Shown: positions 1,882 to 44,584 of the stretch, piece after piece
Layout of the letters: every line of letters starts with the position of its first letter
How positions within the stretch are numbered: the stretch's first letter is position 1
DNA from: Spirochaetota bacterium
GTDB taxonomy: Bacteria > Spirochaetota > UBA4802 > UBA5368
Assembly: GCA_004297825.1 (NCBI GenBank)
Contig: SCSX01000051.1
Location: 1 to 64,000 of the forward strand
Length of the DNA stretch: 64,000 nt
Direction of reading: 5' to 3'
Program-made: the position numbers and the translations under genes
Notes under the pieces: model-generated
Databases searched by the model: none
What the model saw: the letters and a program-made list of their open reading frames with translations, nothing else
What the model was told of the DNA's origin: nothing

Positions 1882-3297
1882 ATGGACGGTCACCCATTGA
1901 ATTCGTTTCGTAAGGGAATAGCGATCGCCGGGCTCCGGGGCGGAAGCGGGAAGACCCTCATCTCCCTGGGTCTGCTCGCCGCGTTCGTCCGCAGGGGCCT
2001 GTCGATCGCTCCCTTTAAAAAAGGACCAGACTACATAGACCCGGCCTGGCTCTCGCTCGCCGCGGGCCGCGAGTGCCACAACCTCGACACCTACCTGCTC
2101 GATGAACGCACCGTAATTTCATCGTACCTGTCCCGCAACAATGAATGCACCTACGCGCTTGTCGAAGGAAACCGCGGTCTCTTCGATGGTTTCGATATCG
2201 AGGGCACCTATAGTTTCGCGAGCCTCGCAAAGGTGCTCGGAATTCCGGTCGTCATCGTGGTGGACAGCGCCAAGTCGAGCAGGACCGCCGCCGCGCTCGT
2301 GCGCGGCTGCCAGGTGTTCGACCCGGACCTGGCGGTGCGCGGCGTCATCCTCAACCGTGTGGCGGGCGAGCGGCACCGTTCCGTCGCGGCGGGGGCCATC
2401 GAGAAGTATTGCGGCATCCCGGTCCTGGGGGCCGTATCCCGGATCCCGGGCCTTGATCTCTCCGAGCGGCACCTGGGACTCTTCCCGGTCCAGGAGCACC
2501 CCGATCCGCGGCGCAGCATCGACATGGTCGTCTCCGCAATGGAGTCCGCGGTCGATATTGACGGCATCATCGCGCTCATGGACCGGTATGAATATCCCAC
2601 TCGTTCCGTTGAGGCGGGCGCCCTTTCCATGGAGCGGCACGAACCGGAAACCTCCGCATCGGCGCCGGCGGTGGGCGTTATACGCGACAGCGCCTTCAAT
2701 TTCTATTACCCTGAAAACCTTTCGGCGCTCACCGGCCACGGGGCGCGGCTCGTCTTTATCGACGCCCTGAAGGATAAAGCGCTTCCCGATGTGGGCGCCC
2801 TGTATATTGGCGGGGGCTTTCCCGAGACGCACGCCCGGGCGCTTGCCGATAACGAATCGCTGCGCAACGATATCCGCGCGGCGGTCGAGCGCGGACTGCC
2901 CGTCTACGCCGAGTGCGGCGGCCTCGAGTATCTTTCCGAAACGCTCGAGGTTGAGGGGACCCGCTACCCCATGGCGGGGGTGTTCCCGCTGCGGTTCAGC
3001 CTCTCGAAAAAACCGCAGGGCCACGGGTACACCGCCTTCACGGTGGACGCGGACAACCCGTATTTTCCCCGCGGTACCGCGGTGCGCGGGCACGAGTTCC
3101 GCTACTCGCGGCTCACCGAATCCCCTGCGGGAATTCGGACCGCGTTCAGGATGGATCGCGGCACGGGCCTGGCCGGCGGGCGCGACGGGATCATGCATAA
3201 AAACGTCCTCGCGACCTTCTGTCACACCCACGCGCTGGGCGCCAATGTCGCCTGGCCTGGAAATCTTGTCGCGCTGGCGCGGGAAAGAAAAAAGTGA
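1882..3297 (+). CDS. dsrN: DsrN, cobyrinate a,c-diamide synthase-like siroheme amidase
   Basis: A 471-residue CobB/CbiA-family glutamine amidotransferase. The N-terminal ATP-binding domain has the P-loop GLRGGSGKT (17-25) and KKGPDYIDP. The C-terminal class I amidotransferase domain has the nucleophile in YAECGGLEYLSE (Cys345) and the closing FCHTHALG (about 447-452). In dsr clusters this enzyme, DsrN, amidates siroheme to the siro(heme)amide of DsrAB. A cobalamin role cannot be excluded by sequence, but no other cob genes are near and it sits between dsrC and dsrAB. The last bases overlap the next start (GTGA). Confidence 0.88.
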   Translation: MDGHPLNSFRKGIAIAGLRGGSGKTLISLGLLAAFVRRGLSIAPFKKGPDYIDPAWLSLAAGRECHNLDTYLLDERTVISSYLSRNNECTYALVEGNRGLFDGFDIEGTYSFASLAKVLGIPVVIVVDSAKSSRTAAALVRGCQVFDPDLAVRGVILNRVAGERHRSVAAGAIEKYCGIPVLGAVSRIPGLDLSERHLGLFPVQEHPDPRRSIDMVVSAMESAVDIDGIIALMDRYEYPTRSVEAGALSMERHEPETSASAPAVGVIRDSAFNFYYPENLSALTGHGARLVFIDALKDKALPDVGALYIGGGFPETHARALADNESLRNDIRAAVERGLPVYAECGGLEYLSETLEVEGTRYPMAGVFPLRFSLSKKPQGHGYTAFTVDADNPYFPRGTAVRGHEFRYSRLTESPAGIRTAFRMDRGTGLAGGRDGIMHKNVLATFCHTHALGANVAWPGNLVALARERKK

Positions 3298-4166: not shown

Positions 4167-5225
4167 CTAAAAGCGAAACTGCATCGACGACCGGTACGAC
4201 TCGGTCGCCATCGTGAAATCGTCGACATGGTCCTCGGTGAATTCGATTCCCGTGAGCGTGAAAAATCTTTCCCAGCCGATGCGCTCGATCCATTCACCGA
4301 TACGCTCGTACTTGCGCGAATGGGCCATGAAGACCTCGATGATGTGCTTGAGCGTATCGGTCACCTCCGGCCAGCGCGGCGGGTTGTTGGGCAGGAACGA
4401 TACCGCGAGCCGCGAGAACATGGGCGACTTGCGCGCGTTCGAGACCTTGCCGCCCACGAAAATGGCGAGCCCGTCGCCGTCGGCGTCCGAAAGCGGCATC
4501 GCCGGGCACACGGTATAGCAGTTGCCGCAGTACATGCACCGCTCGCGGTTCACGACGACCCCTTCGCCGTCAGGATTCTTGCGTATCGCGCCCGTGGGGC
4601 ACGACTTGATTGTCGACGGGATCTCGCATATGCTGGGCACCCGGCTGTTGTCGACCTTGGGGGGCTTGGTGTGAACCCCCACCACGGCGAGGTCCGAGCA
4701 ATGGACGGCGCCGCACATGTTGATGCAGCAGGCCACGGCGATGCGGATCTTCGACGAGAGCCTGAACTCCGTGAAGTATTCGTACAGCTCGTCCATGATC
4801 GCCTTGACGAGCCCGGAGGCGTCGGTCGCGGCGCTGTGGCAGTGGACCCAGCCCTGCGTGTGGATGACGTTAGAGATGCAGTCGCCGATACCGCCCACCG
4901 GCAGGCCCAGCTTTTTCGCCGCCGCGACGATGCCGTCGACATTCTCCTTTTTAGGGGTCATGAATTCCACGTTCGCGCGGCTCGTGAATCTTAAAAAACC
5001 GTCGCACCACTCGTCCGCGATGGTGCAGAGATCGCGGACGAAATCGACGCTTATGAGGCGGGGTGAGCCCACCCTCACGGTGTAGAGCGCGTCGCCGCCC
5101 AGCGCCGTATGGCGCATAACGCCCGGCCGCAGTATTTCGTGATGCTTCCACTGCCCGTAGTTCGCCTTGATCGTCTCCGGGAGCATCGTGCGGAAATCGG
5201 GGGGGCCTATATCGGTTCGTGCCAT
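4167..5225 (-). CDS. dsrB: DsrB, dissimilatory sulfite reductase beta subunit
   Basis: A 352-residue sulfite reductase beta subunit. It binds siroheme and a [4Fe-4S] cluster through the CX(n)CCxxxC pattern, seen here as CISNVIHTQ and then [15 protein letters not shown] second ferredoxin-type domain has KSCPTGAI and [12 protein letters not shown]. With DsrA it forms the heterotetramer reducing sulfite in the cytoplasm. The start is set by AGGAGG, complement of 4 5 bases around 5234-5239, nine bases upstream. It lies 20 bases after dsrA in one operon. DsrD, often downstream of dsrB in sulfate reducers, is absent: the next gene is convergent and only 51 bases away. Confidence 0.96.
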
Positions 5226-5245: not shown

Positions 5246-6412
5246 TTATCGGTTGTAGAATACGAACGGGTTCGAGCGCGGATGCTTTACCATCTGCGGG
5301 ACGGGTTTGATGCCCAGCGCCTTGAGGAATTCCTTGAGGCCCATGCGCGCGATCGTTTCGGCGATGCGCTCGCGGTTCCTGCCGTGCTCGTCCCACCATT
5401 CCCATATCTTCGCGAGAAGGTCCTTGATCTCGGTGTAGGGCGGCTTGATCTCGATGAACGGAACCAGCACCCAGGAAAGGAACGCGCCCTTGAGGATGGG
5501 CGCCTTGCCTCCCACCAGAATGGTCGCTCCCCGCTGCTTCCCGATCTTTATGGCCTTCGTGAGCTTGTTGACGCAGTGCATGCAGCGCACGCACTCCTCG
5601 GGGCGCACGGTGAGGGTCGTGGTCTTTTCGTCGAACGAGAGCGAGCTTCCCGGGCAGCGGTCGACGAAGTCCTTCTGCATGTCGATGCCCTTGGCAACGT
5701 ACTTCTTGATCTCCTCGTTGTCGATGACGATGCTGTCGCGCCAGGTCCCTATGAGGGTGAAATCGGAGCGGGCAATCGCGGCCACGCAGTCGTTGGGGCA
5801 GCCGGACGCCTTGATCTTGAATTTATACGGCCACCGCGGACGGTGAAGCTCGTCCTGGAAGGCGTGCGTGACGTCGTTAATGAAATCGAGCGTATCGAAA
5901 CAGGCCCATTCGCAGCGCGCGGGCCCTACGCATCCCGTGGGCGTCCGCAGGCAGGAGCCTGATCCGCCCAGGTCGAAGCCGGCGTCGGAGAGCTCGTTGA
6001 AGCAGGGCTGCACGTTTTCCGTCCTGGTCCCCAGCAGTATGATGTCGCCGGTGGAGCCGTGGAAGTTCGTGATGCCGCTTCCCTGTTTCTCCCATATGTC
6101 GCAGATCTTGCGGAGCGATTTCGTATCATAGAACCACCCGGCGGGGTGATTCACCCGCACGGTATGGAACTGTTCCGCGGCGGGGAAGGCGTTGGGAATA
6201 TCGGAATAGCGCCCGATCACGCCCCCGCCGTATCCAATGACGCCGACGATCCCCCCATGCTTCCAGTGGGTTACTTTTTCCTTGTAGGACAGCTCGACGA
6301 TTCCGAGCAAATCCCTGGCGGCGGGGCTTTTTTCGGCCGCCCGTTTGATCTCTTTAACGAAACTGGGCCACCTGCCTTGCTCCAGGTCGTCTAACAACGG
6401 GGTTGTAGACAT
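5246..6412 (-). CDS. dsrA: DsrA, dissimilatory sulfite reductase alpha subunit
   Basis: A 388-residue alpha subunit. The siroheme/[4Fe-4S] ligands are in [20 protein letters not shown] and [12 protein letters not shown]. The inserted ferredoxin domain shows RCPG and CVRCMHC. The alpha subunit carries the catalytic siroheme that reduces sulfite to the sulfur later bound by DsrC. The ATG at 6412 is preceded by GGAGGG and starts the family-typical protein; in-frame codons upstream are not conserved-looking. It is first in the dsrAB operon and divergent from the dsrMKJOP operon. Its promoter lies 30-57 bases upstream. Sequence alone does not let me place it firmly in the reductive or oxidative clade. 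Confidence 0.96.
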
Positions 6413-6572: not shown

Positions 6573-7100
6573 ATGCTGGAACTTCACAATGATATGGCGG
6601 TGCGCGTCCGGGAATTGAGTGGTGTCGTGTCGGCACCGTGGCGGGCTATGCTCAATGCCTCCCCGGTTTCGTCCGCGGGCGGGGGTGAATCCGCGCGGTT
6701 TCTCAACCCGCGGGGGGCGATCGTGGACGCGGCCGTCGATTCGGTACTGGGCTGCCTCGCGGGGGTAACGGATCCCGAGGCGCTCGGCAATGCGCTCGAG
6801 CCCTATATGAAGCTCCAGGCGCTGGAGGCCCAATCCGATGTCAAGGCCACCGAGTTTCTCGTTACGCTGAAGGCGCTTTTTCGCGATGCGGTGGAAATCG
6901 TCGGGAGGGCGGATATGCAGGAAGCGGCGCGCGTAATCGAACGGAGCCTGGACGAAATGATCGCCCTCGCCGCCGGGATGTATTGGAAAAACAGGCGCCT
7001 GCTGGTCGAGTTGCGGAACGCCGAGGAGCGGCGTATCGCGGTTCGCAATTTGAAGAATGAGAATGAATCGTCGCAGCCCGATGGAGCGTCGTCCCGATGA
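6573..7100 (+). CDS. RsbRD N-terminal-domain protein at the head of the dsrMKJOP operon
   Basis: A cytoplasmic helical protein of about 175 residues, resembling the N-terminal sensor domain of RsbRD-type stressosome proteins without the STAS domain. Segments such as [36 protein letters not shown] and [17 protein letters not shown] fit that family. My recollection is that such a gene precedes dsrM in several sulfate reducers; its function is unknown, with redox or stress sensing as a guess. The frame is open from 6519, but the candidate promoter lies at 6537-6571, so the start is at 6573 or the ATG at 6594. The stop overlaps the dsrM start (ATGA). Confidence 0.7.
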
Positions 7101-8092
7101 TGATAGCATTCGCCATAACCGTGGTTTCCGCAATCGCGTTCGCCGCCTGGATCGGCGCCGGGCAGGGGCTGCAATCGGTCATGGGAATCGCGCTGCCCTA
7201 CGCGGGGCTGTCGCTGTTCCTGGCCGGAATGCTCTACCGGGTAATCCGCTGGGTGAAAACGCCGGTCCCCTTCAACATCTCCGTGACCTGCGGGCAGCAG
7301 CGCTCGCTTCCCTGGGTTCGCCCGGAACCGCTCGACAACCCGCACAATTCCCTGTATACCTCGGCGCGCATGCTCGTTGAGACGTTCCTGTTCCGCTCCC
7401 TGTTCCGCAACACGCGTGCCGGTCGAAACGGAGCCGTCATCGTCTACGGTTCGGATAAGTGGCTCTGGCTCGGGTCGATGGCGTTCCACTGGATGCTGCT
7501 GGTAATATCGGTCCGCCACCTGAGACTTTTCATCGAGCCGGTGCCGGCGTGGATCGACGCCTTCCAGCAGGTCGATGGAATTTTCAGCCTGGGGCTGCCC
7601 CCCCTGCTCATAAGCAATGTCATTATCGCCGCCGCGCTCGCGTACCTATTCATGCGCCGCGTCGTCAACCGTAAGATCGCGTCGCTGTCGCTCTTCCAGG
7701 ATTATTTCCTGCTCGCGCTCGTCGCGGCGGTCGTGCTGTCGGGCATGTACGTGAGATATTTCGGCAGGGTCGATCTGCTCGCCGTGAAGCAATTCGCGAT
7801 CGGCCTGCTTTCCTTCCAGCCGGTCCTGCCCGCGGGGGCGGCGCCGTTTTTCTACATGCATGTGGTCCTGGTTTCGGTCCTGGCCGCGGCGATCCCGGCA
7901 AGCAAGATCGTGCACCTGGCGGGGATATTCTTTTCGCCCACGCGCAACAGCGCCGCCGACAGCCGGCGCCGGCGCCACGTGAATCCCTGGAACCCGCCGG
8001 TCGCGGTGCACACCTACGAAGAATGGGAAGACGAGTTCAGGGACAGGCTCGTGAAATCAGGATACGCCGTGGAGCGTGACGAACATGGCTGA
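7097..8092 (+). CDS. dsrM: DsrM, membrane cytochrome b subunit of DsrMKJOP
   Basis: A 331-residue membrane protein of the NarI/DsrM type. Hydrophobic segments occur near residues 3-45, 120-140, 170-195, 210-232 and 255-285. His residues in the membrane segments (AFHWMLL, FYMHVVL) are candidate heme b ligands. DsrM oxidises menaquinol and passes electrons to DsrK. The C-terminal charged tail (YEEWEDEFRDRLVKSG) is cytoplasmic. The start overlaps the previous stop, and the end overlaps dsrK by 8 bases, so the operon is translationally coupled. Confidence 0.92.
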   Translation: MMIAFAITVVSAIAFAAWIGAGQGLQSVMGIALPYAGLSLFLAGMLYRVIRWVKTPVPFNISVTCGQQRSLPWVRPEPLDNPHNSLYTSARMLVETFLFRSLFRNTRAGRNGAVIVYGSDKWLWLGSMAFHWMLLVISVRHLRLFIEPVPAWIDAFQQVDGIFSLGLPPLLISNVIIAAALAYLFMRRVVNRKIASLSLFQDYFLLALVAAVVLSGMYVRYFGRVDLLAVKQFAIGLLSFQPVLPAGAAPFFYMHVVLVSVLAAAIPASKIVHLAGIFFSPTRNSAADSRRRRHVNPWNPPVAVHTYEEWEDEFRDRLVKSGYAVERDEHG

Positions 8093-9695
8093 AAAATATC
8101 TCCCCGGGGATCTGCAAGTAATAGAAGCGCCCTCTTCGCGCGCGTGGTACGACCTTCCCGTCCCCATGAAGAAGGGAACCTACAGCCACGCGGGTACGCC
8201 AAAACACGCCGCGTACCTGGGCCTGCCGAACGTGCGTGAGTGGCAGCCGCACAACGAGGACTGGAAGCTGCCGGATGACTGGAAGGAAATTTTATTGAAG
8301 GGAATGCGGGAACGGCTCGGGAAATTCCGCTCATTCCGGCTCTTCATGGAGATGTGCGTGCGGTGCGGCGCCTGCGCCGACAAGTGCCATTTTTACCTGG
8401 GGACGGGCGATCCCCGCAACATGCCGGTCCTGCGCGCCGAGCTCCTGCGCTCCGTGTACCGGGGCGAGTTTACCCTGTCCGGGAGGCTGTTCGGCAGGCT
8501 CGTGGGGGCGCGCCGTCTCACCGAGAGCGTGGTCAAGGAATGGTTCTACTATTTCTACCAGTGCACCGAGTGCCGGCGCTGTGCGGTCTACTGCCCGTAC
8601 GGCATCGACACCGCCGAGATCACCATGATGGGCCGCGAGCTCCTCAACCTCGTCGGCGTGAACATCAACTGGATCGTGGAACCTGCGTCCAATTGCTTCC
8701 GGACCGGAAATCACCTCGGGCTCCAGCCGCACACCATCCGCGACAATATCGAGTTCGCGGTCGATGAGATAAAAGGGATCACCGGCGTCACCGTCGAGCC
8801 TTCCATAAACCGCAAGGGCGCCGAGCTTCTCTTCGTCATCCCGTCCGCCGATATCTTCGCCGATCCGCATATCTACACCTTCTACGGGTACCTGATGCTC
8901 CTTCACGAGTTGGGGATCGACTACACGTTCAGCGCGTACGCGTCGGAGGGGGGGAATTTCGGGCTCTTCCATTCCAACGAGCTCATGAAGCGCCTGAACG
9001 CGAAGATCTACGCGGAGGCGCGCCGGCTGGGCGTGAAATGGATACTGGGCGGCGAGTGCGGGCACATGTGGCGCGTGCTGCACCAGTACATGGATACGAT
9101 GAACGGCCCGGCGGATTTCCTCGAGGTGCCGGCGTCCCCGGTGACGGGGACGGTATTCGAAAACGCGCGCTCGACGAAGATGGTGCACGTATGCGAATTC
9201 ACGGCGGATCTCATCCATCACGGGAAGGTGAGGCTCGATCCCTCCCGCAACGACCGCCTGCGGGTCACCTACCACGATTCATGCAATCCCGCGCGGTCGA
9301 TGGGCCTCTTCGACGAACCGCGCGCGATCATACGCGCGAGCTGCAATAATTTTTTCGAGATGCCCGAACAAACCATCCGCGAGCACACCTTCTGCTGCGG
9401 CAGCGGGTCGGGCATAGGTACGGATGAAAACCTTGAAATCCGGCTCCGGGGAGGGCTTCCGCGTGCGCAGGCCGTCAGCCACGTGCGCGAGCGCCACGAC
9501 GTCAACACGCTTGCCTGTATCTGCGCGATCGATAAGGCGACGCTCCCCACGCTCCTGAATTTCTGGGTCCCCGGCGTGGAGGTTTACGGCGTCCATGAGC
9601 TCGTGGGAGACGCCCTCGTGATGCGCGGGGAATCGCCGCGCGCGACGACGCTCCGGGGCGAACCCCTCGCGGAGGAAACCAATGCGGGGGAATGA
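8085..9695 (+). CDS. dsrK: DsrK, iron-sulfur catalytic subunit of DsrMKJOP
   Basis: A 536-residue HdrD-like protein. Two [4Fe-4S] ferredoxin sites are seen, CVRCGACADKC and CTECRRCAVYCP. The CCG-type cluster module follows: GGECGHMWRV, YHDSCNPARSMG and FCCGSGSGIG, which in this family binds the non-cubane cluster reducing the DsrC trisulfide. The ATG at 8085 is chosen over a GTG at 8076 because GGAG at 8071-8074 is ideally spaced. It overlaps dsrM at its start and dsrJ at its end. Confidence 0.94.
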   Translation: MAEKYLPGDLQVIEAPSSRAWYDLPVPMKKGTYSHAGTPKHAAYLGLPNVREWQPHNEDWKLPDDWKEILLKGMRERLGKFRSFRLFMEMCVRCGACADKCHFYLGTGDPRNMPVLRAELLRSVYRGEFTLSGRLFGRLVGARRLTESVVKEWFYYFYQCTECRRCAVYCPYGIDTAEITMMGRELLNLVGVNINWIVEPASNCFRTGNHLGLQPHTIRDNIEFAVDEIKGITGVTVEPSINRKGAELLFVIPSADIFADPHIYTFYGYLMLLHELGIDYTFSAYASEGGNFGLFHSNELMKRLNAKIYAEARRLGVKWILGGECGHMWRVLHQYMDTMNGPADFLEVPASPVTGTVFENARSTKMVHVCEFTADLIHHGKVRLDPSRNDRLRVTYHDSCNPARSMGLFDEPRAIIRASCNNFFEMPEQTIREHTFCCGSGSGIGTDENLEIRLRGGLPRAQAVSHVRERHDVNTLACICAIDKATLPTLLNFWVPGVEVYGVHELVGDALVMRGESPRATTLRGEPLAEETNAGE

Positions 9696-10074
9696 GCGCG
9701 TGAAGAAAATCGCAATCGTATTTTTTTGGGCGTCGATACTCTCCGTTCCCCTCTGGTGGAATCTCGTCCGGGGAACCGTGCGGGAGCTTCCCCGGCCCGA
9801 GATGCCGGTCGACGTAAAGGAATGCGTACTCCCCGCCGCCGAAATGCGGGCAAACCATATGAATCTGCTGATCGCGTGGCGTGAGGACGCGGTCAGGCGC
9901 GGCGACCGCGCGCCGATCACGGTAAACGGCACGCTATTTGAAAAAAGCCTTACGGGAACATGCCTTGCCTGTCACCGGAAGAAGGACGCCTTCTGCGACC
10001 GCTGTCACAATGCGGTCGCGTCACATCCGGCATGTTTCGATTGTCACAGCGATTCCGCGGGGGCCCGGCCATGA
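9682..10074 (+). CDS. dsrJ: DsrJ, triheme cytochrome c of DsrMKJOP
   Basis: A 130-residue protein with an N-terminal membrane anchor or uncleaved signal (KKIAIVFFWASILSVPLWW) and three CXXCH heme c motifs near the C-terminus: CLACH, CDRCH and CFDCH. This is the canonical three-heme DsrJ. It acts on the outer face of the membrane next to DsrO. The gene starts inside the 3' end of dsrK, and its stop overlaps the dsrO start (ATGA). Confidence 0.95.
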   Translation: MRGNERVKKIAIVFFWASILSVPLWWNLVRGTVRELPRPEMPVDVKECVLPAAEMRANHMNLLIAWREDAVRRGDRAPITVNGTLFEKSLTGTCLACHRKKDAFCDRCHNAVASHPACFDCHSDSAGARP

Positions 10075-10847
10075 ACAGGACACGGAGGGAATTCATACGA
10101 ACCGCGCTGGAGCGCGGGCTCGTCGTTATCGGCGGGACGGCGTTCGCGGCCCTTTCCTGCAAGGACATCTTCACGGACGACGGGCTCAAAACGCACACCG
10201 GAAAACGCTGGGGCATGGCCGTCGATCTCCTGAAGTGCATGAAAAAGGAATCCTGCGTCGATTGCATCGCGGCGTGCCACCTGGGTCACAATGTGCCCGA
10301 TATAAAAGAAGTAAAGCACGCCATAACCTGGATATGGAAGGACGAATTCGAGCGCGTACTGCCGAACGTGCACGACGAATACTCCCCGCCCGCCGCGCGG
10401 CACGCCGGCACGATTCTCTTGTGCAACCACTGCGCGAATCCTCCCTGCGTGCGGGTGTGCCCGGCACGGGCCACGTGGAAGCGCGAGGATGGCATCGTCG
10501 TGATCGACCAGCATCGCTGTATCGGCTGCCGGTACTGCATGGCGGCATGCCCGTACGGCTCGCGCAGCTTCAACTGGAGCGATCCGCGTAAATTCCTGGC
10601 GAAGGAGCGCATCACACCCGCGTACCCCACCCGCACGAAGGGTACCGTCGAGAAGTGCGAATTTTGCGTCGAGCGCGTCGACCGGGGGCAGGGGCTTCTC
10701 TGCGTGGGCGCCTGCAAGGAAAAGGCGCTGCTCTTTGGCGACCTGAATGACCCGAAATCCGAAGTGCGCGCGGCGATGACGGGACGCACGGCGCTGCGCC
10801 GGAAATCCGAGCTGGGAACCGGCCCGGCCGTGTACTATCTCCTGTGA
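10071..10847 (+). CDS. dsrO: DsrO, Tat-exported ferredoxin subunit of DsrMKJOP
   Basis: A 258-residue periplasmic iron-sulfur protein. The N-terminus has a twin-arginine signal, NRTRREFIRTALERG, followed by a hydrophobic stretch and LSC. Four-cluster-type cysteine groups follow: CMKKESCVDCIAACH, CNHCANPPCVRVCP, CIGCRYCMAACPYGSR and CEFCVERV with CVGAC. This is the PsrB/DsrO layout. A longer frame is open upstream but would lie inside dsrJ; the Tat signal fixes the start at 10071. Confidence 0.94.
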   Translation: MNRTRREFIRTALERGLVVIGGTAFAALSCKDIFTDDGLKTHTGKRWGMAVDLLKCMKKESCVDCIAACHLGHNVPDIKEVKHAITWIWKDEFERVLPNVHDEYSPPAARHAGTILLCNHCANPPCVRVCPARATWKREDGIVVIDQHRCIGCRYCMAACPYGSRSFNWSDPRKFLAKERITPAYPTRTKGTVEKCEFCVERVDRGQGLLCVGACKEKALLFGDLNDPKSEVRAAMTGRTALRRKSELGTGPAVYYLL

Positions 10848-10854
10848 GGACGGA

Positions 10855-12009
10855 ATGTTCGAAAAAGCGTTACACGGTTCACGACGATACTGGATGCTTC
10901 TTGCCACGCTGGGAATCATAATTACGGCGGGGGCGATCGCGTACCGATTCCAGCTCCGGGAGGGACTGGCGCTTACCGGCCTGTCGAGAAGCGTCTCGTG
11001 GGGACTCTACATCGCCCAGTTCACCTTTCTCGTCGGGGTCGCCGCATCCGCGGTGACGGTGGTTCTTCCTTATTACATTCACGATTACAAGACGTTCGGG
11101 AAAATCACCATCCTGGGGGAATTTCTCGCCGTGCCCTCGGTCATCATGTGCCTGGTATTCATCCTCGTGGACCTGGGACAGCCGTTCAGGGTTTTCCATG
11201 TGATCATGTACCCGTCGCTTTCGTCCCTCATGTTCTGGGACACCGTCGTGCTGGGCATGTACCTCGTGCTCAACATCGTCATCGGGTGGACGGTGATATC
11301 GGCGGAATATAAAAGAACGGCGCCTCCCGCCTGGGTGAAACCGCTCATATACCTCTCGATTCCCTGGGCGATCAGCATTCACACGGTGACCGCGTTTCTC
11401 TACGCCGGCCTGCCCGGCAGGGACCTCTGGCTCACCGCGATCACGGGGGCCCGCTTTCTCGCGTCGGCCTTTTCTTCCGGCCCCGCGCTCCTGGTGCTCC
11501 TGTGCGGCATGTCGCGCCGATTCACCGGTTTCGATCCGGGGGAGCGCGCGGAGCGGTCGCTTGCCGTGATAATCACCTACGCGTTCAGCGCGCACGTCTT
11601 TTTTATCGTCCTCGAGTTCTTCACCGCGTTCTACAGCGGGATCCCGGCGCAGCGGGCGTCGCTGGCCCACCTGTACTGGGGATGGGGCGATCCGGGCAGT
11701 CTCACGATCTTCACCTGGGTCTCGATCGCCCTCGGGTTTGGCGCGCTCGGCGTCCTGTATTCGCCCGCGCGGCGGCGGGACGGCTGGCTCCTGGCGGCGG
11801 TAACCGCGATTTTTATTTCGGTGTGGCTTGAAAAGGGGCTGGGTTTCGTCGTGGGCGGATTCATCCCCGATCCCTTGGAGCACGTCGCCGTGTATCGGCC
11901 CACGGCCGTCGAGTCGTTCATCGCGGCGGGGGTGTGGGCGGCGGGAATTCTCGTGCTGGTCATACTTTTTAAAATCACGTCAGGGGTACGCGCCCAGGCG
12001 CAGCGGTGA
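10855..12009 (+). CDS. dsrP: DsrP, NrfD/PsrC-type quinone-interacting membrane subunit
   Basis: A 384-residue polytopic membrane protein of the NrfD/PsrC family with about ten hydrophobic segments. It starts after GAGGAC, 7 bases downstream of dsrO. DsrP exchanges electrons between menaquinol and DsrO/DsrJ on the outer face. Family-like sequence includes GLSRSVSWGLYIAQFTFLVG, VDLGQPFRV and SGPALLVLL. It completes dsrMKJOP in canonical order. Confidence 0.93.
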   Translation: MFEKALHGSRRYWMLLATLGIIITAGAIAYRFQLREGLALTGLSRSVSWGLYIAQFTFLVGVAASAVTVVLPYYIHDYKTFGKITILGEFLAVPSVIMCLVFILVDLGQPFRVFHVIMYPSLSSLMFWDTVVLGMYLVLNIVIGWTVISAEYKRTAPPAWVKPLIYLSIPWAISIHTVTAFLYAGLPGRDLWLTAITGARFLASAFSSGPALLVLLCGMSRRFTGFDPGERAERSLAVIITYAFSAHVFFIVLEFFTAFYSGIPAQRASLAHLYWGWGDPGSLTIFTWVSIALGFGALGVLYSPARRRDGWLLAAVTAIFISVWLEKGLGFVVGGFIPDPLEHVAVYRPTAVESFIAAGVWAAGILVLVILFKITSGVRAQAQR

Positions 12010-16766: not shown

Positions 16767-16791
16767 TCCGCCTCCTGTGAGTTTGGGTATC

Positions 16792-16818
16792 AAACCGCCC
16801 GGGTGCGCGCGGCGGTTT
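16792..16818. other. Hairpin between the ThDP and MFS genes
   Basis: AAACCGCC (16792-16799) pairs with GGCGGTTT (16811-16818) around an 11-base loop. The T run follows on the plus strand (16819-16825), where no gene ends, so it is not a normal terminator for this minus-strand operon. It may modulate expression or protect mRNA ends between the two genes. Confidence 0.4.
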
Positions 16819-16855
16819 TCTTTTTCAAGTCAGCGCATGTTTCCGCACCCGCGTA

Positions 16856-18550: not shown

Positions 18551-18598
18551 GGGTATCTCCTGCACATTATTTTAAAACTTCATCGGATATGTAAACCA

Positions 18599-19798
18599 CT
18601 ATCCGCTCACGTTCACAATTGCCCTGGCCGTTTCGCGCGCGATCTGCCGTTCCTCGTTCGCCGGCACGACAAGCGCCCGTATGCTGCTTCCGGGCGCTGT
18701 AATGATTTCGTCTCCCCGTTCGTTCGCCGCGGCGTCGAGAATAAGGCCGCAATAGCCGAAATGCCCCAGGACCCGCCCGCGCAGATACGCGGAATTCTCG
18801 CCGATCCCGCCGGAAAAGACGATTGCGTCGACCCCGCCCATCTCCGCGGTGTAGGAGCCTATGAGACAGACGATGCGGTTGATCAGGATGTCGCTCGCGC
18901 GCCGCGCCGCCGCGTCGCCCGCCCGCGCCCGTTCCTCGATGATCTTGTAGTCGCTGCTTATCCCCGACACCCCGAGCAGGCCGGATTTCCTGTTGATCAT
19001 GGCCTGGATCGCCTCGGGCGCGTAACCGCGCTTCATCAGGAAAAAAATTATTTCCGGATCGAACGAACCGCTCCGTGTCCCCATGGGCAGCCCTTCCAGG
19101 GGGGTGAACCCCATGGAGGTGTCGACGCTCTCTCCCTTCTTCACCGCGCACACGCTCTGGCCGTTTCCCAGGTGACAGGTGATGATATTGAGGTCGCCGG
19201 AATCGCGCCCCAGGATTTCGGACGCGCGCAGCGCGATATGGGCATGGTTCGAACCGTGGAATCCGTATTTCCTGATGCCGAATTTCGTATACAATTCGTA
19301 GGGAAGCCCGTACAGGTATACCGATTCGGGTATCGTCCGGTGAAAGGCCGTATCGAACACGGCGAAGTGCGGCACACGGGGGAGGGGGTCCGATAACGCC
19401 TTAATGCAGGTGAGCGCCACCGGGTTGTGAAGCGGGGCGAGCACGGAAATCTCCTCGATATATCCCAGCACCTCCGGCGTGATCAGTGTCGCGCCGGAGA
19501 ACCGCTCGCCGCCGTGCACGATACGGTGCCCGATCGCGGCGATGTCCCCTTCATCCTTCACGAAACCGCGCTCCCTGAGTATGCCGAGCATGTCCATGAT
19601 CGCTGCCCCGTGATCGGAGTTCGCGATCGTCGCGGTTTCATCCCGGCCGTCAACGCTGATCTTCCTTACGGTAGAAGGCTTCGCGGCGATATCACCGATC
19701 TCGAGGTAGTGGCCCCGGATGATGACATCGCCGGAATCGCCGTCATTGAGCTGGAATTTCAGCGAGCTGCTTCCCGCGTTGATGACCAGGATGTTCAT
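18599..19798 (-). CDS. ackA: Acetate kinase
   Basis: A 399-residue acetate kinase of normal length. Signatures are NILVINAGSSSLKFQL at the N-terminus, HFAVFDTAFHRTIP and GFHGSNHAHIALRA for the active site, and VFSGGIGENSAYLR near the C-terminus. It converts acetyl phosphate and ADP to acetate and ATP. It lies 18 bases after xsc, so the acetyl phosphate made by Xsc would give ATP directly; a phosphotransacetylase, the usual partner of xsc in assimilating bacteria, is not present in the window. Confidence 0.95.
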   Translation of the reverse strand: MNILVINAGSSSLKFQLNDGDSGDVIIRGHYLEIGDIAAKPSTVRKISVDGRDETATIANSDHGAAIMDMLGILRERGFVKDEGDIAAIGHRIVHGGERFSGATLITPEVLGYIEEISVLAPLHNPVALTCIKALSDPLPRVPHFAVFDTAFHRTIPESVYLYGLPYELYTKFGIRKYGFHGSNHAHIALRASEILGRDSGDLNIITCHLGNGQSVCAVKKGESVDTSMGFTPLEGLPMGTRSGSFDPEIIFFLMKRGYAPEAIQAMINRKSGLLGVSGISSDYKIIEERARAGDAAARRASDILINRIVCLIGSYTAEMGGVDAIVFSGGIGENSAYLRGRVLGHFGYCGLILDAAANERGDEIITAPGSSIRALVVPANEERQIARETARAIVNVSG

Positions 19799-19816
19799 CG
19801 CGAACAGTGCGTGTCC

Positions 19817-21541
19817 CTACACCATGCTCAGGTGCTTGTACTTGGGAAGATACCGCACCGCCGGCTTGAACGCGTCCCTGCGGAACGGCTCCGCGAGCAC
19901 CTTCTCGCCTCCCTCTATGACGGCGTTGATGACGACCGGCTTGCCGCATTTCACGGCTTCCTTGACCACGTCCTTGACGTCGGCGTAGTTGTCGACCTTG
20001 AAGCCGACGGCGCCCATATCCTTCGCGATCTGGGCGTAATCGGGATTAGTCAATAAATCAGCCCCGACGAACCGGCTCTTGAAGAAGTCGATCTGGTTCT
20101 TTTTCTCGGCGCCCCACTCATGGTTGTTGAAGACGACGGCGATTACGGGGATGTTCTCCCTGACGGCCGTCATGACCTCGCTCAAACCGCTGATCCCGTA
20201 CGCGCCGTCCCCCTGCAGGGCGAACACCGGCGAGGAGGGCGCTCCCATCTTCGCGCCCAGCGCGGCGCCGTAGGCGAAGCCGCAGTTTCCCCAGGAGAGG
20301 GCCGATAAATGCTGCCGCGATCCCGTGAATTTTAAATAGCTGTTGCAGATGGAGGAATTGTTGCCTATGTCCGTGGCGACGATTGACCCGGCCGGGATCG
20401 CGTCGGTCAGCTCCTTGATGAAACGCCGGGGGTGCATCAGCGCGCTGGTCGATGAGGACCAGGCGTCGAGCTCGTCCTTCCAGATCCCTTTTTCCTTTGT
20501 AATATCGGCGAGGCGCGCGGCGTCTTTCTGGCGTTTCTGGTCGATCGTTTTCAGGGCCGCCAGCAGTTCCTTCGCGAATTCGCGCGCGTCGGCGAGGATG
20601 CCCAGGTCGATCTTTTTCGAGATGCCCAGCTGCGTGCCATCGCAATCGACCTGGATGAGCGTCGCGTTTTTGGGCCAGTAGTCGATATCATACTGGGGCA
20701 GGGTGCCAAAGGGCCCCAGCCTCGTACCCAGCGCGAGGACGACATCGGCCTTCGCGATGCATCTCATGGCAGCCTTCGATCCGCAGTAGCCGATAGGCCC
20801 CACGGCGAGCTCGTGGCCGGCCGGGAAGGTGTCGTTGTGCAGGTAGGTGTTCACCACCGGGGCGGTCAGGTACTCGGCGAGCGCCCCCGTTTCCGCATGG
20901 GCATTGGCCATGGAAACGCCGCCGCCGGCGAGGATGACCGGGTATTTCGCCTTCGCGAGCATCTCGGCGGCCTTCTTTATCTGGTCGTCCGTACCGCTTC
21001 CGTAATGGACGTCATCGGTCTTGAAGATATCGCAGTTGATGTCCCCGTAGAAATAGTCCCGGGGGATGTTGAGCTGGGTGGGCCCGCACAGGAGCTTGGC
21101 CATATAGAAGCAGCGGCGCGTCAGTTCGGCCATGCGCTCCGGACGGTTCACGCGAACCTGGTACTTGGTGCATTTTTCGAACCAGGGCATCTGGTCGAGC
21201 TCCTGGAACCCTCCCGTGCCGATACCCATGCTCCCGGTCTCGGGCGTGATCGCGACGACGGGCGAATGCGCCCAGAACGCTGCCGTTACGGCCGAAATGA
21301 AATTTGCCGCGCCCGGCCCGTTCTGCCCGATGCAGGTCTGGGGTTTGCCGGTCACCCTCGCGTAGCCGTCCGCGGCATGGGCCGCCGCCTGTTCATGCGC
21401 TACGGATATAAAGCGAATGCCCGCCGCGGGAAAGAGGTCCAGGGCGTCCATGTAGGCGCTTCCAACGATACCGAAGATGTCTTTAATGCCTTCAGCGGCA
21501 AGGGTTTCTACAAAAGCCTCCGACGGGGTCATTTTTGTCAT
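19817..21541 (-). CDS. xsc: Xsc, sulfoacetaldehyde acetyltransferase
   Basis: A 574-residue ThDP enzyme. The N-terminus GIVGSAYMDALDLFPAAGI, followed by HEQAAAHAADGYARVTGK and QNGPGAANFISAVTAAFWAHS, is typical of Xsc and unlike acetolactate synthase. The PP domain has LQGDGAYGISGLSEVMTAV and NNHEWGAEKKNQ. Xsc converts sulfoacetaldehyde and phosphate to acetyl phosphate and sulfite, in the cytoplasm. GGAGG four bases before ATG 21541 sets the start. It is the first gene of a minus-strand operon with ackA, the ThDP enzyme, the MFS transporter and tetR, behind a promoter with tandem palindromes. Confidence 0.94.
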   Translation of the reverse strand: MTKMTPSEAFVETLAAEGIKDIFGIVGSAYMDALDLFPAAGIRFISVAHEQAAAHAADGYARVTGKPQTCIGQNGPGAANFISAVTAAFWAHSPVVAITPETGSMGIGTGGFQELDQMPWFEKCTKYQVRVNRPERMAELTRRCFYMAKLLCGPTQLNIPRDYFYGDINCDIFKTDDVHYGSGTDDQIKKAAEMLAKAKYPVILAGGGVSMANAHAETGALAEYLTAPVVNTYLHNDTFPAGHELAVGPIGYCGSKAAMRCIAKADVVLALGTRLGPFGTLPQYDIDYWPKNATLIQVDCDGTQLGISKKIDLGILADAREFAKELLAALKTIDQKRQKDAARLADITKEKGIWKDELDAWSSSTSALMHPRRFIKELTDAIPAGSIVATDIGNNSSICNSYLKFTGSRQHLSALSWGNCGFAYGAALGAKMGAPSSPVFALQGDGAYGISGLSEVMTAVRENIPVIAVVFNNHEWGAEKKNQIDFFKSRFVGADLLTNPDYAQIAKDMGAVGFKVDNYADVKDVVKEAVKCGKPVVINAVIEGGEKVLAEPFRRDAFKPAVRYLPKYKHLSMV

Positions 21542-28517: not shown

Positions 28518-28585
28518 ACTAATTTCCCGCCCGCGTATTCGATAGAATCATGACAGCCTCGACCAACCGCATGACGTAAGGATTC

Positions 28586-30487
28586 ATGAGAAAAAAATTC
28601 GACTATAATGACAAGATCGTACTCCTGACCGGCGCAACCGGCGGGCTGGGGTCCTCGCTCGCGCGCATGCTCGCACAGGCCGGGGCGCGCCTCGTGTTTT
28701 CCGCGCGGTCCCGCACGGCGCTCGAAGAGTTGCGTGCAGCGCTCGCCAACCCGGAGCGCGCGGAGATCGTTATGGCGGATCTTTCCGTCACCGGGGAAGG
28801 GCCTCGCCTCGCGCGCGAGGCCGAATCGATCTACGGGCGCATCGATGTCGTGGTGAACAACGCCGGTCTCGGTTATTTCGCGACGATGGATGAGGCGGAC
28901 GAGGAGCGCCTGCGGTATCTTTTCGAAGTCAACATGTTCGCCCCGCTCGCGATTGCGCGCGCGCTGATTCCCGGCATGAAGGCGCGGGGCTCCGGCCGAA
29001 TCGTGAACGTCGTGAGCTTCGCCGGACGGGTGCCCATAGTCACGAACGGGTCGTACGGCGGGAGCAAGTCGGCGCTCGCCATCATGATGAACACCATGCG
29101 CCTTGAGCTGGCCGGAACGGGCGTCGATGTCATAAATATCTACCCGGGAACGGCGGCCACGGCGTTCGAGGAGAACGCGCTCAGGGAGCCGGGCCGGGAC
29201 CGGATTTGTCCGCGGGAAACCTGTGGCGATCCGCGGGACGAGGTGGCGCGCGAGGTTTTCGAAGCGTCAAAAGGAATGCCCGGCGAAAAATGGCTCGACC
29301 GGAGCGGCCGTGCCATGGCGGTACTCTCGCTCCTGTGGCCGCGCAGGGTGGAGCGCAGGCTCGAACCGCTCAGGAAAAGGGTGTTGGACGGGGAAGGGGG
29401 AGGAGGTACTTTCCGCGCGCGGCGCTGGCGTCTCTGGCAGGTCGAGACCTCGATCGCGTGCAACCTAAGCTGCATCATGTGCCCGTGGGACCAGGTCCGC
29501 GCCGCGGCGGGAAGCGAGGGCCTCATGAAGGAGGAGGTGTGGGCCGCGCTCCGCCCCCACCTGGGCGACGTCGCGTCGATCGACTTTTCGGGAGGCGGCG
29601 AGGCGCTCATGAATCCCCATCTCCCTTCGTGGATCGCGGAGGCGCACGGCGCGGGCTGCGTGACGGGATTCCTGTCAAACGGCAGCCTCCTTACGGCAGA
29701 GCGCGCCCGGGGCATCGTCGATGCCGGCGTGGACTGGATCGCGCTGTCGATCGACGGTGCGACCGGTGCGGTGTATGATTCGATCCGAAAAGGCGCGCGC
29801 TTCGACCGTCTCATCGAAAACATGGAAGCACTCGCGTCGCTGAAAAAACGAGGCCGCCCGCGTCTTGTCATCATTTTCGTCATGATGAACGACAACATCC
29901 ACCAGCTCGACGACATGGTGCGGCTTGCCGCACGGTACTCGTTCGACCGGATCACCTTCAAGCAGTGCGACGTCATCCGCGGCGAGTCGGGCAGGGGATT
30001 CGGGCTGTTCGGCGGCACGCGAAACCGGGAGGTCCGGCGCTACGAGAAGATGGTGTCGAAAGCCCGCAGGCTTGGAAAGCGCCTGGAGGTGGAGGTATCC
30101 GGATTTTCGTTCGTTCCCGAGGAGCAGCCGGTCTGCGCGCAGGACCCGCGGTCGTCGGTGTTCGTGCGCTATGACGGGCGCGTTTCGCCGTGCATCAACC
30201 TCGCGTACGGCGGTGCGACGACCTGGCTCGGGAAGGAGGTCGTAATGCCGTCTGTCCACTACGGCGCGCTTCCCGCCGACGAGCTCGATTCGCTGTGGGA
30301 AACGCCTTCGTGCATATTGTACCGGACACGCTTCGAGGAGAGGTACGAATCATTCAATCGCAGGATCGCCGGGTATGACCGCGAACCCTCGCTCCAGTAC
30401 CTCAGGCAGATCATGGAAGAGGCGAGGAAAGGCATGCCGGAGCCGCTGGAAGGCTGCAAGGTATGCCCGTACCTGTACGGAATTTGA
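28586..30487 (+). CDS. Fusion of a short-chain dehydrogenase and a radical SAM/SPASM enzyme
   Basis: A 633-residue two-domain protein. Residues 8-255 are an SDR: TGATGGLGSS for NAD(P), NNAGLGYFA, SFAGRVP and the catalytic SYGGSK. Residues about 285-630 are a radical SAM enzyme with CNLSCIMC, a GGGEALMNP turn, and a SPASM-like C-terminus with CAQDPRS, YDGRVSPCINLAYGG and CKVCPYLYG. The join (MAVLSLLWPRRVERRLEPLR) is an SDR C-terminus followed by a Gly-rich linker, with no frameshift. The substrate is unknown; SPASM proteins modify peptides or other small substrates. I know of no common protein with this order. It ends 50 bases before a strong terminator. Confidence 0.85.
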   Translation: MRKKFDYNDKIVLLTGATGGLGSSLARMLAQAGARLVFSARSRTALEELRAALANPERAEIVMADLSVTGEGPRLAREAESIYGRIDVVVNNAGLGYFATMDEADEERLRYLFEVNMFAPLAIARALIPGMKARGSGRIVNVVSFAGRVPIVTNGSYGGSKSALAIMMNTMRLELAGTGVDVINIYPGTAATAFEENALREPGRDRICPRETCGDPRDEVAREVFEASKGMPGEKWLDRSGRAMAVLSLLWPRRVERRLEPLRKRVLDGEGGGGTFRARRWRLWQVETSIACNLSCIMCPWDQVRAAAGSEGLMKEEVWAALRPHLGDVASIDFSGGGEALMNPHLPSWIAEAHGAGCVTGFLSNGSLLTAERARGIVDAGVDWIALSIDGATGAVYDSIRKGARFDRLIENMEALASLKKRGRPRLVIIFVMMNDNIHQLDDMVRLAARYSFDRITFKQCDVIRGESGRGFGLFGGTRNREVRRYEKMVSKARRLGKRLEVEVSGFSFVPEEQPVCAQDPRSSVFVRYDGRVSPCINLAYGGATTWLGKEVVMPSVHYGALPADELDSLWETPSCILYRTRFEERYESFNRRIAGYDREPSLQYLRQIMEEARKGMPEPLEGCKVCPYLYGI

Positions 30488-30588: not shown

Positions 30589-32124
30589 CTACAGGGGAAC
30601 CGGGAAAAGTATTCCGCCGAAGATCAGGTAGGCGATTATCAGCGTCCAGACGATGTTGAAGAGCTGCGCCACCGAGAACGCGAGCGCCGGCTTGCCCCCG
30701 CCCATCGCGACAAGCTCCTTGAACTTGGTTTCGAGGCCGATACACAGGAACGCGAGGGTAAACCACCATACCCGGATTTCCTTCGTGATATCCGTGACGG
30801 CTTTCGCGCTGGCCTCGGTCATGAAGAATGAGAAGAAAACCGATGCGATGATGAAACCCAGGACGAATTTTGGGAAGCGGGACCATATCTCCCTGATCCC
30901 GGGTTTCTCACCGGTGGCGGATCCCTGCTTCATGGAGAACCACACGGCGAGCCCGAACGCGGCGACGCCGATGAGCACGTTCTGCGCCATCTTGACGACG
31001 ATCGCGACCGACATGGCCTTATCGCCCGCTATCGCCCCGGCGGCGACCACCGCCCCGGTGGTGTCGATCGTTCCCCCGATCCACGCCCCGGCGACCGCGG
31101 GTGACATCCCGACCCACTTGGCTATGAGGGGCTGAAGGATCAGCATGGGTACGGCCATAAGGAGCACGAGGGAAATGGTGTGACTTACTTTCTTGGAGTC
31201 GCCCTTGACCGCGCCGCCTGCGGCGATCGCTGCCGAAACGCCGCAGATCGATACCGCGGAGGCAAGGATGGAGGCAAATTCATCGTCGAGCCCGAGCTTC
31301 TTGGCGAGCCAGTAGCAGACGTAGAACACCGCCGCGATGACCACCACGGCCTGGATCATGCCGTATGCGCCGACCGTGACGATCGTCGTGAACAGGACCT
31401 CGGCCCCGAGCATGACCAGGCCGATCTTGATGAAGAACTCGGTCTTGACCGCGGTCTTGAGCCACTCGGGCACGCCGATCGTGTTGCTTATAAGCAATCC
31501 GAAGATAAGAGCCCAGAAAACGACCTCGAGGCCGTAATAGCTGATAATATCATTGCCGGCGATGAAAAAGGCGAGCGCCGACAGAATGAAGATTATGGGG
31601 AAACCTCCGGCGAACTTTCCGGCCGGCAGGCCCATCAGGAGCATGCCGATCATGCCGAGCACCCAGAGTCCGGCCAGCAGATACAGGGCAGGCAGCATGT
31701 TCTGCGCCGAGAATACCTTGCTCACCGTCGCACCGGCCGTTCCGGCGATATCCTTGCCGAGCTTTTCGCCCTTCTTCTTGAGATCGCCGTCCTTCGCGCC
31801 CTTCGCGGCCGCTTCGAATTTCTTCGCGGCTTCGCCGATGGCCTTCCGGTCCTTGGCGTCAAGCGCCGTTTTCAACGCTTTGGCTTCGGTTGCCAGCGCA
31901 TCCTCTTTCTTGGTGTCGGCATCTTTTGCCAGCCCGTCCGCCTTGGGCGCCCACTTCTCGATTTTTTCCTGGAAAGACCCGTCGGTCACCCATTTCCACT
32001 TTGGAGACTGGAACGTGAGACCGACCATGAAGACGATCAGGACCAGGAATCCGATCCAGACCGACATCCAATCGTCGGATTTGATAAGGTTTTTCCACCG
32101 ACTTTCGACTTTCTTATCGTCCAT
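30589..32124 (-). CDS. YeiH/UPF0324-family putative sulfite/sulfate exporter with N-terminal extension
   Basis: A 511-residue membrane protein of the putative sulfate exporter family (Cons_hypoth698). Family sequence includes GLLISNTIGVPEW, IKIGLVMLGAEVLF, SAVSICGVSAAIA, AGAWIGGTIDTTGAVVAAG and FLCIGLETKF. Relatives occur beside xsc and taurine genes, where sulfite or sulfate export is proposed. The N-terminal 140 residues are unusual: one membrane segment (20-38), then about 90 residues rich in Lys, Ala and Asp predicted helical or coiled coil. AGGAGGG precedes the start. It is separate from the xsc operon, 9 kb away. Confidence 0.82.
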   Translation of the reverse strand: MDDKKVESRWKNLIKSDDWMSVWIGFLVLIVFMVGLTFQSPKWKWVTDGSFQEKIEKWAPKADGLAKDADTKKEDALATEAKALKTALDAKDRKAIGEAAKKFEAAAKGAKDGDLKKKGEKLGKDIAGTAGATVSKVFSAQNMLPALYLLAGLWVLGMIGMLLMGLPAGKFAGGFPIIFILSALAFFIAGNDIISYYGLEVVFWALIFGLLISNTIGVPEWLKTAVKTEFFIKIGLVMLGAEVLFTTIVTVGAYGMIQAVVVIAAVFYVCYWLAKKLGLDDEFASILASAVSICGVSAAIAAGGAVKGDSKKVSHTISLVLLMAVPMLILQPLIAKWVGMSPAVAGAWIGGTIDTTGAVVAAGAIAGDKAMSVAIVVKMAQNVLIGVAAFGLAVWFSMKQGSATGEKPGIREIWSRFPKFVLGFIIASVFFSFFMTEASAKAVTDITKEIRVWWFTLAFLCIGLETKFKELVAMGGGKPALAFSVAQLFNIVWTLIIAYLIFGGILFPVPL

Positions 32125-32993: not shown

Positions 32994-34301
32994 TCACCCC
33001 GCCGGAAGGCTCACCCTGATCGCCGTCCCCTTGCCCGGCGCGCTCGTCGCCTCGATGCTCCCCCCGTGCGCCTCGACGATCCGCTTGCACAGGTACAGGC
33101 CCAGGCCGTAGCCGCCGCGCTCGTGAGAGCGGGCCCGGTCGGCGCGGTAGAAGGGCTCGAAAATGAAGGGGAGGTCTTCCGGGCCGATGCCCGGGCCGCC
33201 GTCGCGCACCTCCACGACGATGGAATCCTCGTTATGCGAGATCGCGATCGAGATCGGGGGCCCGTCCGCCGGGGTGAACTTCACGGCGTTCTCGATGACG
33301 TTCCGGAACACGATGCCCAGGCGCTCCCTGTCGCCACGTACCGCGGGGGGAGGTGCGCCCTCCTGGCCCAACGCGTATCGGCCCCCCGCCGCCGTCGCCG
33401 CGGCCTCGCGGACCAGGGCGGAGATATCCACCGGTTCGCGCATAACGGCACCCGCCGGGTGGTCGAGCCGTTCGCTTTCAAGGAGCTCGCGGACCATGCC
33501 CTCGAGCACGTTCACATCATCGAGGATGCCGGCGCGCGCATTTGGATCGTCGATAAGTTCGCAGGCGAGGCGCAGCCGCGTGAGCGGCGAGCGGAGCTCG
33601 TGGCTCACGTCCAGGAGGAGCTGCTCACGTGAGCGGAGCATCCGCGCAATGGTCGTGTTCATGGAATTGAAGGAATCCGAGAGCGCGGCGAGCTCGTCGG
33701 CGCCGCGGACGGGGAGGGCATTGTCGAAATTTCCGCGCGCGGTTTCGCGCACCCCCCGGGCGATGAGCGTGAGGGGACCCAGGATGCGGCGTATCGCGAA
33801 CCAGGTCCCGGCGAGCGCCGCGCACAGGAGCGCGATGAGCAGCAAGAGCGAGGCGTCGAACTCGTCGGGGGCGGCGTCCCCGCGCGGGACGAACACGAAG
33901 GTGTAGCCCTCCTTCTCGACGACGTAGACCATCCGACCGAGGTGAACGCCCGCCTTTCCCTCGCCGAACGGGCGCAGGCGTTCCAGGGTGCGCCGGTCGG
34001 CGGGGGTGCCGCCGGGGCTCGTCCACTCGACGCCCCTGCCGGAGATGCTTATATATAGAAGAAGATCGGATGCGCGCTTCTCGGCGACGCCCAGGTCGGG
34101 CGGGAGGCCGATATCGCGGACGAGGTACCCGATGTACGCGCTCATGTTGCGCGCGAAGACGGCACGGCCGCGGTAGGCGAAATGCGTGCGGAAGAACGCC
34201 CCCACGGCGAGGTTGATGACGACGCCCAGGAGCACGATGACGGCGAGTAGCCGCGCGAAGAGCGAGCCGCGGAGCTTTCGGAAGACGCCCTTTCTATCCA
34301 T
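32994..34301 (-). CDS. Sensor histidine kinase (CpxA/EnvZ type)
   Basis: A 435-residue membrane kinase. Two membrane segments at about 15-38 and 148-168 flank an extracytoplasmic sensor of 110 residues. A HAMP domain follows, then the HisKA box LLLDVSHELRSPLTRLRLA and a HATPase domain with NVIENAVKFTP, EVRDGGPGIG, FIFEPFYRAD and GGYGLGLYLCKRIV. It overlaps the upstream response regulator by 8 bases, forming a two-gene operon. The signal is unknown. Confidence 0.93.
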   Translation of the reverse strand: MDRKGVFRKLRGSLFARLLAVIVLLGVVINLAVGAFFRTHFAYRGRAVFARNMSAYIGYLVRDIGLPPDLGVAEKRASDLLLYISISGRGVEWTSPGGTPADRRTLERLRPFGEGKAGVHLGRMVYVVEKEGYTFVFVPRGDAAPDEFDASLLLLIALLCAALAGTWFAIRRILGPLTLIARGVRETARGNFDNALPVRGADELAALSDSFNSMNTTIARMLRSREQLLLDVSHELRSPLTRLRLACELIDDPNARAGILDDVNVLEGMVRELLESERLDHPAGAVMREPVDISALVREAAATAAGGRYALGQEGAPPPAVRGDRERLGIVFRNVIENAVKFTPADGPPISIAISHNEDSIVVEVRDGGPGIGPEDLPFIFEPFYRADRARSHERGGYGLGLYLCKRIVEAHGGSIEATSAPGKGTAIRVSLPAG

Positions 34302-34995: not shown

Positions 34996-35239
34996 GGTCC
35001 CCCGGCGGCGTAAGAGTATCGGACCCCTCCCCGCCGTGAAAAGACAGCCGGAGGAGGGAGTCGTACCTTTCACGGGAATATAGGCATGTCCGGCGCGGGC
35101 TTCAAGGACTTTTTCGGGGGCCGGGGCGCGCGGGCGGGGCGAACCGTTACAAATAATATTGAAGATTCCTTGACACTAAGCGATATTAGTATTAATCGAT
35201 GATCGACCCGGGCGGCACAATGAGCGCCCCGAAGAGGAC

Positions 35240-44572: not shown

Positions 44573-44584
44573 GGGGGGGGGGGG
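44573..44584. repeat. Run of twelve G next to a stop codon
   Basis: A G12 homopolymer ends one base before the complement of the stop of the second LamG gene. Such tracts slip in replication and in sequencing, so the exact length and the 3' end of the reading frame should be treated with care. Confidence 0.7.

Follow-up and report, generated by a model that had tools for sequence, protein, structure and literature searches.

A conserved SDR–radical SAM/Twitch fusion enzyme associated with Dsr-type sulfite respiration and a YeiH-type transporter

Introduction

Why would an SDR and a radical SAM enzyme be carried on one polypeptide, and in what metabolism would such a protein take part? The question is raised by a gene at 28586..30487 (+ strand) in a 64,000-nucleotide stretch of DNA from a Spirochaetota bacterium (assembly GCA_004297825.1, contig SCSX01000051.1), which was analysed as a whole and is called the window here. 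The strongest clue on the fusion is that it is linked to dsr genes and a gene for a YeiH-type transporter. We consider it an evenly balanced proposition that the protein is a bifunctional enzyme going back to a single ancient fusion, serves as an accessory to Dsr and is tied to the YeiH-type protein, with a radical SAM half that makes a carbonyl and an SDR half that reduces it. Among the alternatives weighed below, we rank protein maturation above tetrapyrrole tailoring, and tetrapyrrole tailoring above sulfonate catabolism. The Dsr pathway ranks among the oldest respirations; that a radical SAM family is conserved beside dsr genes and genes for a transporter of the sulfite-resistance type suggests that one of its accessory steps has been missed. 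The fusion itself suggests which two activities share one substrate, a question that can be tested with a single purified protein.

Results and Discussion

Two catalytic modules in one polypeptide

The gene is a single ATG-to-stop frame of 633 aa, preceded by a possible ribosome-binding site read from the sequence (AAGGA, 28578..28582, + strand), for which the 3-nt spacing to the ATG at 28586 is short. A first-pass annotation had described one frame joining a complete SDR to a complete radical SAM domain, and the frame, the Pfam matches and the motifs bear this out: the gene encodes two complete catalytic modules in a single conserved polypeptide.

The classical SDR core spans residues 10-198 (28613..29179, + strand; PF00106, adh_short, 3.8e-44) and contains TGATGGLG at 15-22, NNAG at 91-94, N116, S144 and Y157-GGS-K161, motifs that are kept in all homologues covering them. 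The TGxxxGxG cofactor motif, the Ser and YxxxK catalytic residues and the Rossmann-fold match make this half a classical SDR. Arg41 follows the second strand, which we take to suggest NADPH, and the SDR half probably uses this cofactor. In a fold search it resembles 3m1a and HSD17B13, and it shares with classical SDRs (PRK06181/NF004825 as well as these two structures) the full core, the Ser-Tyr-Lys residues and the fold; it differs from them in that the core is followed by a C-terminal extension and then by the radical SAM domain. The extension, delimited by alignment of seven fusions (residues 199-268; 29180..29389, + strand), has an amphipathic stretch and two conserved cysteines, C208 and C213 (29207-29224), a pair that is kept among the fusions.

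The halves are joined by a linker at residues 269-277 (29390..29416, + strand), which varies slightly in length among homologues and is the sole low-confidence segment of the AF2 model (pLDDT <50 at residues 270-276). GC3 across the join is 0.72-0.90, with no shift in codon-position composition. The model of the whole protein has a pLDDT of 91.7 and a pTM of 0.68, and because of the latter value the domain interface is uncertain. Since the best 50 fold matches of the full model were all SDRs, a separate model was made of the radical SAM half, giving a pLDDT of 93.7 and a pTM of 0.91.

The radical SAM domain lies at residues 288-448 (29447..29929, + strand; PF04055, 3.2e-15). The CX3CX2C motif within it, CNLSCIMC at 292-299 (in CNLSCIMCPW), which places the protein in the radical SAM superfamily, provides the cluster cysteines C292, C296 and C299, kept in 94-100% of the 49 members of the radical SAM family that we mapped. 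Beyond it, residues 503-633 (30092..30484, + strand) form an auxiliary-cluster domain with the motif C517-X13-G531-X4-C536 ... C624-X2-C627, the cysteines of which are present in 96-98% of the 49 members. SPASM domains are defined by seven cysteines (CX9-15GX4C-gap-CX2CX5CX3C-gap-C), and Twitch domains are truncated SPASM domains that hold one auxiliary cluster and retain the first four cysteines (PMC6231123). The C-terminus had been called ‘SPASM-like’ at first; only C517, C536, C624 and C627 fit, a count that rules out the seven-cysteine SPASM label and agrees with Twitch, and the Pfam SPASM model (PF13186) is marginal at 20.2 bits against a cut-off of 21.5. The four conserved cysteines would together fully ligate one auxiliary cluster.

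In a profile search of the PDB the radical SAM half matched BtrN best (8e-15), followed by BlsE and PqqE, and its fold neighbours are SkfB, DesII, BlsE, anSME and SuiB. BtrN, a Twitch radical SAM alcohol dehydrogenase, has the same four-cysteine Twitch domain; it differs in having no SDR and an aminocyclitol substrate, and it aligns well over about the first 130 positions only. The only NCBIfam matches of the fusion, all below cut-off, are SDR models, TIGR04311 (rSAM_Geo_metal, a putative metalloenzyme maturase; 132.1 bits, cut-off 400) and TIGR04317 (a maturase of a tungsten cofactor oxidoreductase; 117.1 bits, cut-off 380). The latter two are the closest named radical SAM families, and membership in either is ruled out by scores so far under the cut-offs; their gene neighbours also differ in the loci examined. 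By its sequence, then, the radical SAM half is assigned to a family without a name. The remark of the first-pass annotation that no existing family with this domain order was recognised holds in that Pfam and NCBIfam name no such architecture and a full-text search of open-licence papers found none describing an SDR–radical SAM fusion. Searched by term, the main texts of two surveys of Dsr genomes (PMC10591310, PMC11406059) mention no such enzyme. As far as these libraries and open-licence papers go, both halves are of known kinds, while the architecture and the association of the family with dsr and YeiH-type genes are undescribed.

The join is conserved and under selection

The same fusion was found in at least seven genomes of three phylum-level groups, the genome of the window included. 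Three further full-length copies come from Spirochaetota of the same family as the window and are 80% (G001), 79% (G007) and 74% (G004) identical to it. Two more full-length fusions (G753/L148 and G755/L155) belong to the order of an uncultured Desulfomonile, with 54-57% identity to the window in the SDR and 49-50% in the radical SAM half, or 54-59% and 49-51% when compared with the four Spirochaetota copies together. The copy from the third group (L025) is 42% (SDR) and 53% (radical SAM) identical to the window and is 5′-truncated, its contig beginning inside the SDR so that the first ~107 residues are off the contig end. The relatives of the window's genome are Spirochaetota MAGs, and the data on homologues are MAG data. 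A 645-aa SDR frame in G043 (L015) was rejected as a fusion, as its SDR stands behind what looks like a spurious upstream frame.

The annotators had named an assembly error at the join (29390-29430) among the things that would refute it, and this is excluded by the conservation of the join across three phylum-level groups. That two unrelated genes were joined by chance or in assembly could be suspected in a genome of 4.9 Mb that is spread over 96 contigs; with the same join in seven genomes at identities down to ~50%, and with selection acting across the linker, such an origin has almost no chance of being right. Between the window and G001, dN/dS is 0.12 for the SDR, 0.24 for the linker, 0.13 for the radical SAM domain and 0.25 for the C-terminal domain, so that purifying selection acts on the linker as well as on both halves.

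The seven fused SDRs form a single clade (support 100/97) apart from the other SDRs sampled in this and related genomes. In the radical SAM tree, monophyly of the SDR-fused rows is weakly rejected (p-AU 0.043), and in the Desulfomonile order they are interleaved with rows that have a GNAT-like partner. We read this tree as a single fusion, after which some genomes of that order lost the SDR or replaced it.

Link to Dsr-type sulfite respiration

The window carries a Dsr island at 1882-12009, comprising a CobB-family amidotransferase gene, a nitrilase-like gene, dsrB, dsrA, dsrM, dsrK, dsrO and dsrP. On the − strand, dsrA (match region 5249..6394, mechanical ORF 5246-6574; TIGR02064, 563.5 bits, cut-off 392.85) and dsrB (match region 4167..5171 within ORF 4167-5594; TIGR02066, 476.8 bits, cut-off 341.5) were identified, and on the + strand dsrM, dsrK, dsrO and dsrP (7097..12009; NF038037, NF045796, NF045797 and NF045798, all over cut-off). 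The amidotransferase gene beside dsrB (1882..3297, + strand; NF002204, 428 bits, cut-off 254) would, by its position, be DsrN-like. After dsrP, at 12022-14531, come another membrane cytochrome-like gene (PF02665) and another DsrK/TmcB-like one.

All seven fusion genomes contain dsrA. In Spirochaetota, dsrA is present in 13 of 393 genomes, and the five with a radical SAM gene of the window type are all among these 13. In a Desulfobacterota sample, dsrA occurs in 54 of the 62 genomes that carry the family in its broad sense, whereas in the sample as a whole it occurs in 144 of 297 (Fisher 2e-12, a test that ignores kinship, which inflates co-occurrence statistics of this sort); within the window's own family the co-occurrence is not significant (p = 0.11). 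Five genomes have a family gene and dsrA on one contig, at distances of 2.3 kb (G395), 3.5 kb (G574), 3.8 kb (G522), 6.4 kb (G478) and 22 kb (the window). The order in G574 is radical SAM gene, YeiH-type gene, nifU, nifS, dsrA and a dsrB-like frame, and in G003 one contig holds a standalone homologue, a YeiH-type gene and genes that resemble dsrMKJOP in sequence. Genome co-occurrence and gene linkage tie the fusion to the Dsr gene set, and we take it to be an accessory enzyme of dissimilatory sulfite respiration of the Dsr type. Many dsrA-positive genomes lack it (G002, and 90 of the 144 in the Desulfobacterota sample), so the enzyme is not essential to Dsr.

The linkage to dsr genes, together with the CobB-family gene adjoining dsrB, would also be expected of an enzyme that tailors siroheme or another tetrapyrrole for DsrAB, much as NirJ and AhbC/AhbD act on siroheme derivatives. 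NirJ is a radical SAM enzyme with a siroheme-derived substrate (PMC12505453), and relatives of the fusion match the NirJ, AhbC and AhbD models weakly. This role is nonetheless quite improbable, given that the gene is absent from most dsrA-positive genomes, that family members also occur in dsr-free genomes and that, among solved structures, the profile lies nearer to BtrN and BlsE than to tetrapyrrole enzymes.

A YeiH-type transporter gene as recurrent neighbour

The gene next to the fusion encodes a long-form transporter of the PF03601/YeiH family (30589..32124, − strand), lies 102 bp past the fusion gene and is the only copy found in the genome. The two genes are convergent and so do not form one operon in the window. 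A gene of this type adjoins 14 of the 49 family loci, that of the window included, and these loci span genomes of Spirochaetota, Chloroflexota and Desulfobacterota type. The YeiH-type gene is single-copy in most genomes checked, and the adjacent copy is usually the only one. The neighbour also occurs in four family-bearing genomes without dsrA (G048, G060, G100, G598). On the basis of this conserved adjacency, the fusion enzyme is functionally tied to the YeiH-type membrane protein.

The partner is related to the YeiH/putative sulfate exporter family (PF03601, TIGR00698), of which the Salmonella member protects against sulfite and is reported as the chief driver of in vitro sulfite resistance (PMC12880088). 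It differs in being a long form that scores 102 bits against TIGR00698, below the cut-off of 232.6; the charged, low-complexity N-terminal extension of ~170 residues is common to relatives in other phyla. The YeiH-type protein may move sulfite or a related sulfur compound.

SPASM/Twitch enzymes modify peptides, and the recurrent adjacency to a single transporter gene could alternatively mean that the target of the radical SAM half is a protein: the transporter itself, a subunit of Dsr or something else encoded nearby, with the SDR or GNAT-like partners as helpers. The nearest NCBIfam models, TIGR04311 and TIGR04317, are named as metalloenzyme maturases, and SkfB, SuiB and anSME are among the fold neighbours. 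Against this, those models are matched at 132 and 117 bits, far under the maturase cut-offs of 400 and 380; Pfam reported no peptide-recognition (RRE) domain; no precursor peptide gene was noticed in an unsystematic look; and protein maturases are not usually paired with a ketone reductase. We regard a maturase as unlikely and prefer an enzyme that forms and reduces a carbonyl.

Exchangeable partners and proposed chemistry

Across the 49 members and their loci, the radical SAM family has three recurring partners, namely the PF03601/YeiH protein, an SDR and a GNAT/FemAB-like protein. In a distant branch, the SDR is of a different subfamily and is encoded by its own gene directly upstream of the radical SAM gene (L160, L180, L186, L187). 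In many Desulfobacterota loci the radical SAM gene is adjoined by a GNAT/FemAB-like protein of ~280 aa, often with a TraB-family protein. One 711-aa protein, at 4813-6948 of L154 (G689), fuses the radical SAM half to a domain that is GNAT-like, and it was on this ground rejected as an SDR fusion. The interleaved radical SAM tree looks as if the partner had been exchanged between SDR and GNAT-like.

Several further features of these loci were observed. The GNAT/FemAB-like protein has a YVPEH motif and is a separate gene in L156, L157, L159, L163, L166, L168, L172-L175 and L177, and pairs of it with the radical SAM gene are often accompanied by a TraB/GumN-family gene. A close standalone homologue in G394 (L028/L192) is split over two frames at ~5680 of L028, by decay or sequencing error. 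A YedE-family putative selenium transporter gene stands beside family members at L030 3688-4785 and L177 6618-7709 (464 and 490 bits, cut-off 200). Many clade members have two-component regulators nearby (window 32994-35073; L023, L024, L025, L026, L100), a proximity that may be due to chance as these are common genes.

An SDR transfers hydride and cannot itself supply single electrons to clusters, and its natural role is therefore on the substrate. The first-pass annotation had proposed a redox step beside a radical step on the same substrate; this may be so, and the reading is made more plausible by the separate SDR gene directly upstream in the distant family branch. In the proposed scheme, the 5′-deoxyadenosyl radical would abstract a hydrogen from a hydroxyl-bearing carbon, after which either a second electron would pass to the auxiliary cluster, as proposed for BtrN, or a group would be eliminated, as in AprD4. 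The carbonyl product would then be handed to the SDR half and reduced by hydride, for a net deoxygenation or inversion of an alcohol. A precedent for such pairing is the apramycin pathway, in which the radical SAM diol dehydratase AprD4 and the NADPH-dependent reductase AprD3 act on one substrate (PMC5461906). The likeness would be one of function; AprD4 and AprD3 are separate proteins of an aminoglycoside pathway whereas the present enzyme is fused and linked to sulfite respiration.

Some clade members lack the SDR and have a GNAT-like protein instead, so the SDR step is not universal. For the family at large, we hold it possible, at somewhat short of an even chance, that a radical SAM/Twitch enzyme associated with Dsr and the long-form YeiH protein makes or modifies a metabolite or cofactor, with an exchangeable partner (SDR or FemAB/GNAT-like) that is either fused or separate.

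A likely sulfonate module in the window

At 15477-21541 the window carries genes for an MFS transporter, a second TPP enzyme, acetate kinase and sulfoacetaldehyde acetyltransferase, the last two (ackA and xsc; 18599..21541, − strand) matching TIGR00016 and TIGR03457 over cut-off. This stretch is likely a sulfonate-to-sulfite module feeding Dsr. With xsc and ackA 7-10 kb upstream of the fusion gene, and with xsc in most of the window's family, the enzyme could be imagined in organosulfonate catabolism. The SDR would then oxidise or reduce a C2/C3 sulfonate, its cleavage would be aided by the radical SAM half, and the sulfite would pass to Dsr. Two genomes with xsc (G005/G006) are without such a radical SAM gene, and the search for xsc was negative in G753, G755 and G007, three fusion genomes that are MAGs and perhaps incomplete, so sulfonates are not the common denominator of the fusions. 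This weakens the sulfonate pathway as the main role, which we hold to be very improbable. Elsewhere, at 41488-48488, the window encodes two large proteins in which Laminin_G_3 (concanavalin A-like) domains are repeated.
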